Source: a virus. Taken from it: DNA of 60,563 bases. Of the stretch, positions 35,299 to 38,137 are shown one piece after another (position 1 is the first letter of the stretch; every line of letters starts with the position of its first letter). Position numbers and translations under genes: made by a program. Below the pieces are notes generated by a model that had not been told where the DNA came from, did not search any database, and saw only the letters and a list, made by a program, of their open reading frames with translations. The stretch spans positions 1 to 60,563 of IMG/VR virus record IMGVR_UViG_3300032083_001059. One strand, given 5' to 3'.

Positions 35299-35332
35299 AT
35301 CCCCCACAGAGCTCATAGTGGGGGATTTTTTT
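35299..35332 (+). terminator. Rho-independent terminator after gp32
   Basis: ATCCCCCAC pairs with GTGGGGGAT (nine pairs) around AGAGCTCATA and is followed by six T. It faces the 3' end of the minus-strand tail block and separates the two convergent units. Confidence 0.9.
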
Positions 35333-37025
35333 ATATGGAGCTTGTAGTAAGTTGTCTTAAGAGTGGATCTGGATTTACTATCAAATGACTTGCTTGCTGA
35401 ACTGTTGTTGCATTATTAACAGTTCTTGCACTATTATCCATAACTACTGTTTGTCCACTCGTATTTTCTTTTACTTGTGGTGATGCATCAATCATCTCAG
35501 TTCTTTGTGCAGAATTAGTTTGTGCAGTTGTTGGTGTGGTTGAAACACTACCACCTTTCATTTTTTCAGAGAATACTCTATTAAATGCTTCAAGTGGACT
35601 TTCACCAAAAGGTGCAGCTGCTTTTACAGCTGCTACTACTGCACTAAGCATCGCACTTATAAAATTACCTATTGGTGCAAGTTTTTCTTTTATAGCGTTT
35701 ATAAAAGGCTTAAAAAAATCAAGAACTGGTTTAAAGAAATCAATCGCAGTTTCTAGTTTTGGTTTTATGAATCTGTCGTAGATACCTGATATAAAATTTA
35801 ATACAGGATCAAATATTCCAGATATTATACTCGCACCAAAGTCTAGTGCTTCATCAATCATTGGTTTTATGTTATTTGTATAAATCCCCCCAATAAACTC
35901 AATCACACTATTGAACATATTTTTAATACCACCTAAAATCTTTTCTCCTATTTCGGTTTCTGTCAAGAATACATATACACCAGTCAATGCAGCTATAACT
36001 GCACCAACTGCTAAGCCTATTGGGCCAAACTTAGATGCAAATTTAAAGATGGGCCCTGCCTTTCCAAAAAACTTACCCAACGCACCTACTGATTTTGCTG
36101 CTCCACCTTTAGCAGAATCTTTTAATCCTATTGCTGTTTTTCCTATGCGTGTATTCACTGCTGTGAAAGCAGCTTTCAATTTTTTAAAATCAAATAACAT
36201 TGGTATTGATTTTAAGATTGCACCACTTGCTTTAAAAACTCCTTTACCTATGGAAACAAATGCACCACCTAGTGCAACGATTCCTTTACCAAGTCCAAGT
36301 AAAAGTTTACCGCCTGCTTTAAGTCCATACTTTGCGAGTGTGATACCTATTTGTAGTGCAACTTTTGTAAGTCCAAATCCTATCTGTGCAATTGCTGTTC
36401 CTAATTTAAGAACAGTTGGGAGGAGTCCAAAAACTATAGGTAATAGTTTAACAGTTAGAAAAGTTCCTAATGCTAAAAGTCCAAGAGGGCCTGGGCCTAA
36501 TTCAAAAAGTGCTTTACCTAGTGGAAGTATTATGTTATTATATAAATTAAATACTGCTGGAACTAATGTGCCTGTTATGTAATCTATCATTTGACCAAAA
36601 AGTGGACTTTGAAGAAATCCAATAATTGCTGGAAGAAAAATAAACAGTGCAGCTTTTGAGATAAAACTTAAAAGTCCACCAGCACCTTTTTTTGCGAGTC
36701 CACCAAGACTTGCTAATCCTCCACCTAAACTTTTACCTAATCCTTTAAGTTCACCACCAAGTCCAGTTATACCTTTGGCAATATTAGTTTGTAATTTAAA
36801 ATTTTTACCAAAATCTAAAATTTGACGAAAACGACTTTTCTTATCATCTCTGTCTGTTTTCTTTTTTGAATCTTTAGCTTCTTTATCGCTCTTACTTGTT
36901 TTTGTTGTTTGACTATCTAACGCTTTTGCAATTGCGTTAAGTGCCATAGTGTGACGACTATCTCTACCAGCCTCACTTCTATTGTTCTTTTGTAGTTGTG
37001 CTATAACTTCGTCAAGAGTTGCCAT
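35331..37025 (-). CDS. Tail tape-measure protein (gp29-like)
   Basis: 564 residues, similar in length to T4 gp29 (590). The N-terminus is charged (KTSKSDKEAKDSKKKTDRDDK), followed by a long helical, Gly/Ala/Leu/Ile/Phe-rich region with several membrane-like segments (ISKAALFIFLPAIIGFL; GPIGLAVGAVIAALTGVYVFL), typical of tape measures that set tail length and are ejected with DNA. It lies downstream of the gp26/gp51 frameshift gene, where tape measures usually sit relative to tail chaperones. Identity with gp29 is inferred from this, not from an alignment. Confidence 0.72.
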   Translation of the reverse strand: MATLDEVIAQLQKNNRSEAGRDSRHTMALNAIAKALDSQTTKTSKSDKEAKDSKKKTDRDDKKSRFRQILDFGKNFKLQTNIAKGITGLGGELKGLGKSLGGGLASLGGLAKKGAGGLLSFISKAALFIFLPAIIGFLQSPLFGQMIDYITGTLVPAVFNLYNNIILPLGKALFELGPGPLGLLALGTFLTVKLLPIVFGLLPTVLKLGTAIAQIGFGLTKVALQIGITLAKYGLKAGGKLLLGLGKGIVALGGAFVSIGKGVFKASGAILKSIPMLFDFKKLKAAFTAVNTRIGKTAIGLKDSAKGGAAKSVGALGKFFGKAGPIFKFASKFGPIGLAVGAVIAALTGVYVFLTETEIGEKILGGIKNMFNSVIEFIGGIYTNNIKPMIDEALDFGASIISGIFDPVLNFISGIYDRFIKPKLETAIDFFKPVLDFFKPFINAIKEKLAPIGNFISAMLSAVVAAVKAAAPFGESPLEAFNRVFSEKMKGGSVSTTPTTAQTNSAQRTEMIDASPQVKENTSGQTVVMDNSARTVNNATTVQQASHLIVNPDPLLRQLTTSSI

Positions 37026-37282
37026 TATTTTTTACTTGACCCTGTGTAAAGTCCAAACCATGCAGCTCCAGCACCTACCACAATACTGACTAAACCACTT
37101 TGCTCTATTGTTGGGTTACTTAATTCCATATACCACATAACGACTGCATAGAGTAGATAGATATAAGTTGTTATGAATATTCGTGGAAAGATTCTCCACT
37201 GGTCAACTGCACGAGCCATATCTATCCATTTTTGGTAACGATTAACTTCTTGACTTTGCTCTTTCTTTTTCAATTCTTTCAT
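37025..37282 (-). CDS. Small two-TM protein
   Basis: 85 residues. A charged N-terminal helix (ELKKKEQSQEVNRYQKWIDM), then IFITTYIYLLYAVVMWYM and LVSIVVGAGAAWFGLYTG as membrane spans. Similar proteins occur in T4-type marine phages. It lies between the gp26/gp51 gene and the tape measure and its start overlaps the frameshift extension by 41 bases. Function unknown; holin-like topology. Confidence 0.72.
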   Translation of the reverse strand: MKELKKKEQSQEVNRYQKWIDMARAVDQWRIFPRIFITTYIYLLYAVVMWYMELSNPTIEQSGLVSIVVGAGAAWFGLYTGSSKK

Positions 37283-38137
37283 TTTCTTCCCTTATATGTT
37301 CTGCGAGTAATCCCACATATATTTCCCTCTCCCAAGGCATCATATTCTCTAACTCTGTCAAACTATATTTATGATGTTGCATTAGTGCAAAATTTGTTTT
37401 ATAGTAATTAAACAAACTATCATGGGAGAGCGCTATTCTAAAAAACTCTGGAGGCCCTCCAATATAACCTCACTTTTTTTCTTTGTTTTCGGATTAGTTA
37501 CTGTTATTGGGTGTCTTAACTTGGGCATCGTGTTAAAGAAAACCATAACTTTTTCAAACTGACTGGTTGTTAACTGGTCAATAAATTCTGTTAGTTCTTT
37601 GTCACTCATGTCTGCTCTATGATATACAGTATCACCACTATGTATTTCATCAATACAAGTATTTAACAGTTTAAAAACTGTTTCTGTTTCTGACATTTTT
37701 TCAACTCCACCCAAATCATTAAGTAATGGATATCTTAGATGTATTTTAATTGAGTCTGTTAACTCAATGACATTTGTATGCTCATCTGTAACTTGTACGA
37801 AAATATCAGATAAATTTAATTTTACTGGAACTCTTGTCTTTTCATCGTCTGGGCAAGTTATATTAACTTCAACAGTTTCACCTACTGACTTTCCTCTAAT
37901 TTGTAAAAACAAATATTCAACATCAAATACTGGAGATGTTGTTGCATTTACTTTATTAAAAGTACAAGAGTTAACTAAATTTGATACAGTATTAACTACT
38001 TGTGTTTGGTCATTTGATTCTTGTGCAACCATTAATAATTTTTGCTCTTTAACTAAAAATGGTCTGTATTTTATTTTTTCGCCTGTTGATGGTAACTGCA
38101 ATTCATAGGTTGGTGTTTCTAATTTAGGTAAAGCCAT
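37242..38137 (-). CDS. Predicted gp26-gp51 fusion made by -1 ribosomal frameshifting
   Basis: Slipping -1 at T TTT TTA just before the gp26 stop would join 233 gp26 residues to 65 more (RIALSHDSLFNYYKTNF then ALMQHHKYSLTELENMMPWEREIYV, ending AKSRS), about 298 in all. The extension frame is open, has no good start codon of its own before the conserved part, and looks like gp51-type sequence from marine T4-like phages. The arrangement matches the tail-assembly chaperone pairs (lambda G/GT) that precede tape-measure genes. Not proven; an internal ATA, TTG or other weak start could instead yield a separate gp51. Confidence 0.6.
37433..38137 (-). CDS. 26: Baseplate hub protein gp26
   Basis: 234 residues. 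The N-terminus (ALPKLETPTYELQLPSTGEK, then IKYRPFLVKEQKLLMVAQES) and SCTFNKVNATTSPVFDVEYLF are typical of gp26 in T4-type marine phages (T4 baseplate protein family). FLQIRGKSVGETVEVNITCP follows. In T4, gp26 is a hub component or assembly factor. The stop codon lies three bases after a slippery heptamer, so a longer form is likely. Confidence 0.85.
   Translation of the reverse strand: MALPKLETPTYELQLPSTGEKIKYRPFLVKEQKLLMVAQESNDQTQVVNTVSNLVNSCTFNKVNATTSPVFDVEYLFLQIRGKSVGETVEVNITCPDDEKTRVPVKLNLSDIFVQVTDEHTNVIELTDSIKIHLRYPLLNDLGGVEKMSETETVFKLLNTCIDEIHSGDTVYHRADMSDKELTEFIDQLTTSQFEKVMVFFNTMPKLRHPITVTNPKTKKKSEVILEGLQSFLE
37439..37460 (-). promoter_or_regulatory. -1 frameshift signal: slippery heptamer with upstream SD-like element
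   Basis: On the minus strand, T TTT TTA (37445 down to 37439) is in the gp26 zero frame, the ideal X XXY YYZ form. GGAGG (37460-37456) lies 10 bases upstream, the spacing at which an SD-like element stimulates -1 slippage in E. coli dnaX. GGAGGGCCTCC is also a palindrome. Confidence 0.65.

Follow-up and report, generated by a model that had tools for sequence, protein, structure and literature searches.

The gp26 gene and the gp51-like reading frame behind its 3′ end very probably form a tail assembly chaperone (TAC) pair, in which a short protein (TAC-N) and a longer gp26–gp51 fusion (TAC-NC) would be generated by −1 frameshifting. The locus lies in the window, i.e. the whole 60,563-nt stretch of viral DNA analysed here. 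A fusion of gp26 to a gp51-like tail had been proposed in a sequence-only reading of this DNA, and it is supported because the slippery heptamer is conserved in related phages, the upstream Shine-Dalgarno (SD)-like element appears to be kept by synonymous codon choice, the −1 frame has the properties of a coding frame from the shift point on, and gene 51 of the T4 group corresponds to the fusion.

Organization of the gp26 locus

The features of the locus and its neighbours are as follows:
37433..38137, minus strand: gp26, short tail assembly chaperone (TAC-N), the 0-frame product of 234 aa (PF12322, E 5e-67; phrog_150, E 1e-73)
37460-37456, minus strand: GGAGG, candidate internal SD-like stimulator, with a spacer of exactly 10 nt to the heptamer
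37445-37439, minus strand: slippery heptamer T TTT TTA in the gp26 frame; T TTT TTN is kept in 169 of 176 loci
37435-37433, minus strand: TAG, 0-frame stop of gp26, read from the sequence
37415..37432, minus strand: position of the stop-adjacent hairpin, degenerate in the window (5 of 7 pairs)
37242..37439, minus strand: −1 frame tail, gp51-like (TAC-C), 65 codons plus stop (phrog_634, E 8e-31)
37025..37282, minus strand: 85-aa probable membrane protein (phrog_10198, unknown function)
35331..37025, minus strand: tape-measure-like protein of 564 aa (phrog_1535, phrog_1272, and others annotated as 'tail length tape measure protein', E 3e-10 to 8e-6)

The chaperone gene is located upstream of the tape-measure-like ORF, the 564-aa product of which is presumed to be the client of the chaperone. 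The earlier placement of the gp51-like tail ahead of a tape measure gene holds in that such a gene is present downstream, but the two are not directly adjacent: the 85-aa ORF intervenes, and its first 41 nt are shared with the 3′ end of the −1 tail.

The AlphaFold2 model of gp26 has a pLDDT of 88.9. Its best structural neighbour is the HK97 tail assembly chaperone (gp14, 2OB9), to which residues 1–85 were aligned over 83 residues at 3.9 Å with a VIA-align Z of 7.6, a moderate match for which the Foldseek E value (1.8) is not significant. YqbN was the second neighbour (Z 6.8), and unrelated rows reached Z values of at most 3.1. The resemblance of the modelled N-terminus to the HK97 TAC fold is thus supportive but not decisive. 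No significant match was obtained for the gp26 sequence among solved structures, and the NCBIfam search returned no match for gp26 or the fusion.

The slippery site at the 3′ end of gp26

The 3′ end of gp26 reads ...GAG GGC CTC CAG AGT TTT TTA GAA TAG, with the three nucleotides GAA separating T TTT TTA from the stop. The sequence-only reading had placed the heptamer in frame with gp26 and three bases short of the stop codon, with GGAGG 10 bases upstream and a −1 frame open for 65 codons, and each of these statements is exact. The heptamer alone proves little because T TTT TT(A/C/T) occurs in frame 16 times in the 18,051 codons of the ORFs of at least 100 aa in this AT-rich window; its rarity was accordingly dropped as evidence. 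Its significance derives from its position and conservation.

Conservation in related phages, which had been suggested as a check, was confirmed in 176 homologous loci, comprising the closest viral loci, further cyanophage-like loci, and named phages. All 80 of the closest viral loci (52–100% identity to the window gp26) carry T TTT TT(A/C/T) before the gp26 stop, and this sequence lies in frame and exactly 3 nt 5′ of the stop in 168 of the 176 loci. One further locus, that of Rhizobium phage RHph_Y68 (L174, near 2181-2187), has T TTT TTG at the same distance, and in two further loci the heptamer is found 6 nt before the stop. The loci bearing the heptamer span Kyanoviridae, Straboviridae (KVP40 and Aeromonas phage 65), Menderavirus, Pootjesviridae, and a Desulfovibrio phage, and also include Stenotrophomonas phage Moby and Ochrobactrum phage OC. 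Scans with the gp26 sequences of KVP40 and Moby returned only near relatives of the respective query. In Pelagibacter phage Mosig (L083, 3200-3232), the heptamer is present and the 0-frame stop is located 24 nt, not 3 nt, downstream; the short form of Mosig therefore carries extra C-terminal residues, and the deposited annotation places the start of a separate 'gp51' inside the tail.

The first Phe codon at the site is TTT in 144 of 144 distinct loci, compared with 78% in the rest of these genes, and the codon preceding it (Ser, Asn, or Asp) ends in T in all 144 (65–82% elsewhere), figures that describe how the site is built and do not test it independently, because these loci were chosen for the heptamer.

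Klebsiella phage Magnus (L175, ~2260-2304) and Pseudomonas phage Cygsa01 (L179, ~1765-1809) lack T TTT TTN and share ATT TTC Axx TAA at the heptamer position. Their −1 tails are still open for 56 and 60 codons (...LMPWH... and ...MLPWH...), respectively, and it is possible that another slip site, perhaps of the single-tRNA type, is used in these phages.

The SD-like element and the downstream hairpin

GGAGG or GAGG at a spacer of 10 nt was found in 121 of the 144 distinct loci. For the Glu residue encoded by the element, which unlike the heptamer played no part in locus selection, 88 of 101 clusters use the codon GAG vs 29% elsewhere, and G precedes this codon in 59 of 108 (55%) vs 15% elsewhere; the P-values of these codon biases treat clusters as independent and are thus too small. 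Both excesses point to selection at the RNA level rather than the protein level, with synonymous codon choice favouring an SD-like element.

A perfect 7-bp hairpin, which begins 6 nt past the heptamer and abuts the stop, was found in part of the near relatives. Complete variants include GACTATC-TCAC-GATAGTC, GACTCTC-GAGAGTC, GACTTTC-GAAAGTC, and GGCTCTC-GAGAGCC, which differ from one another by compensatory changes, and 60% of the hairpin cells are paired in register, compared with 29–38% when the partner is slid. S-SSM7 has a longer post-stop hairpin. The mean folding z was −1.9 for the 144 loci and −0.2 for control windows from the same genes. In the window itself, the folding z is −0.81 and the minimum-energy fold does not use the remaining 5 of 7 pairs, and a complete downstream hairpin was discarded as a feature of this sequence. 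The SD-like element is therefore the sole clear candidate stimulator in the window.

The gp51-like tail in the −1 frame

The −1 tail (RIALSHD...KSRS) ends at TAA (37244-37242). Its gp51-like character, recognized in the sequence-only reading, was borne out by the match to phrog_634, 'baseplate hub assembly catalyst' (gp51), and it also matches the C-terminal part of phrog_150. Joined to residues 1–233 of gp26, it yields a virtual fusion (TAC-NC) of 298 aa. The sequence-only reading had seen no credible start in the −1 frame; the earliest possible starts are TTG 37415, which has no GGAGG-like element just upstream, and ATG 37382.

Among the divergent clusters with a complete tail, all 107 have a tail of 56–70 codons, whereas off-frame runs of at least 55 codons occur at a frequency of 0.005 (P 0.005 each). 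Conservation begins at the first post-slip codon (R, 87%), which is followed by L-S-H-D, and includes H (88%, position 5), Y (95%, position 11), N-F (95–96%, positions 15–16), and P-W-E-R (92–96%). In pairwise comparisons, third codon positions, as counted in the −1 frame, account for 51% of the differences. These patterns indicate coding constraint on the −1 tail from the shift point on.

Correspondence with T4 genes 26 and 51

T4 gp26 and gp51 are listed as hub assembly chaperones, and gp51 is required for assembly and absent from the particle (PMC3004832). Both belong to PF12322 and are weak paralogues (BLASTP E 2e-6). T4 gp26 covers positions 14–235 of phrog_150, T4 gp51 covers positions 13–280, and the window fusion covers positions 5–280 of 282 (E 2e-87). 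The short and long forms thus share the N-terminal domain; T4 gp26 corresponds to the short form only, and T4 gp51 is a full-length protein colinear with the frameshift fusion. An HMM built from the −1 tails alone matched the C-termini of the 44RR, T4, and SonariX gp51 proteins (E 4e-13 to 3e-8) and did not match gp26. T4 gene 26 ends in GAG TTC TTT, with no slippery site there. Since T4 gp26 has the extent of the short form, T4 gp51 has that of the fusion, and T4 lacks the slippery site, T4 encodes both forms in two genes. Unlike in the window, the two forms in T4 reside on separate, diverged, and divergently transcribed genes without a slippery heptamer. In the other T4-type phages sampled, both forms appear to be produced from one gene by slippage.

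Alternative explanations

The gp51-like frame might be expressed as a separate small gene by re-initiation or translational coupling past the gp26 stop, e.g. from TTG 37415 or ATG 37382. Many cyanophage relatives have an ATG in the −1 frame a few codons past the shift point, from which a separate tail could be made, and databases annotate small gp51 genes there. However, no start-codon position is conserved among the clusters: the first ATG is found anywhere from codon 2 to codon 32, and one cluster has none. In the group to which the window belongs, conserved residues precede the first start, and the homologue in the T4 group is a single continuous chain. As re-initiation also has no need of an invariant heptamer or of an SD-like element 10 nt away from it, a separate gp51 is improbable.

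Transcriptional slippage on the run of six T residues would also yield the fused frame. Six T residues are few for this process, and their phase relative to the codons is fixed (NNT TTT TTN), with the SD-like element kept synonymously 10 nt upstream, an arrangement that fits ribosomal slippage only, so that this explanation appears even less probable than a separate gene. The least probable is that a chance heptamer stands beside an unrelated or pseudogenized frame, or that a sequencing error has split a fused gene. The abundance of in-frame heptamers in this AT-rich DNA would allow for the former, but the arrangement recurs in 169 loci from several phage families and the tail bears the marks of coding constraint; this conservation already contradicts either version.

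Proposed mechanism

Ribosomal −1 frameshifting thus remains the preferred reading. We infer that slippage occurs in this phage and that both forms are made, at a slippage rate such that the majority of ribosomes would stop at the gp26 TAG and release TAC-N. During decoding of the heptamer, 16S rRNA would pair with GGAGG and a ribosome could move back by one base on T TTT TTA; slipped ribosomes would bypass the gp26 stop and append the 65-residue gp51-like tail, giving the 298-aa TAC-NC. The functions of the two forms may parallel those of lambda gpG/gpGT: the tape measure protein would be coated by numerous copies of the short form and a small number of the long form, the added domain of the long form would recruit tail tube subunits, and, again by analogy with lambda, neither form would stay in the virion.

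Comparison with known frameshifting systems

The E gene of P2 has a slip site of the T TTT TTG type, to which the variant of Rhizobium phage RHph_Y68 belongs, and the lambda slip heptamer differs from T TTT TTA. An SD-like element is located ~10 nt upstream of the heptamer in Escherichia coli dnaX, as in the window; dnaX combines A AAA AAG with a stable downstream stem-loop, whereas the window combines T TTT TTA with a decayed hairpin. In lambda gpG/gpGT and P2 E/E+E′, as proposed for this locus, the −1 shift is located towards the 3′ end of the gene for the short chaperone, upstream of the tape measure gene (PMC5009743). The same 2016 recoding review described G-T frameshifting as conserved in long-tailed phages 'except T4' (PMC5009743).

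The sequence-only reading was aware of no clear description of frameshifting for the gp26/gp51 pair, which proved wrong: T4-like TAC genes were identified by Vladimirov, Gautam & Davidson (2022, Virology 566:9-15), as cited in two later papers (PMC10885494, PMC12846349). The PRFect paper cites that study for separate short and long genes in T4-like phages (PMC10885494), and the Adele paper cites it for poly-T frameshift signals in T4-like TAC-N genes (PMC12846349). As far as these citations describe them, the T4-like TACs are similar to the window locus in gene family (gp26/gp51), in the logic of short and long forms, and, in some groups, in their poly-T signals; the window differs from the earlier cases in representing an uncultured marine relative. 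According to its abstract, the 2022 study reportedly found frameshifting to be conserved in several T4-like groups, with T4 using genes 26 and 51. The mechanism proposed in the sequence-only reading is therefore very probably right but not new in kind, because the idea of T4-like frameshifting, so far as the citing papers convey it, was published in 2022.

Two features are possibly unreported: codon-level selection on the SD-like element, and the post-stop hairpin that covaries among relatives. The stimulators, unlike the kind of frameshift, have in our judgement an even chance of being new; they comprise an SD-like element apparently held at 10 nt by synonymous choice across marine T4-type phages, a lineage-variable and compensated post-stop hairpin, and a putative swap to ATT TTC in Ackermannviridae (Magnus) and Cygsa01.

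For many T4-type phages, the sequence evidence is thus strong that gp26 and gp51 together constitute a single chaperone gene with a frameshift. Entries named 'gp51' in the genomes of cyanophages and pelagiphages would accordingly be fragments of the fusion and need to be re-annotated as joined genes. The results also support the reading of T4 genes 26 and 51 as a pair of paralogues taking the place of the frameshift, with which T4 would no longer be the exception noted in the 2016 review.
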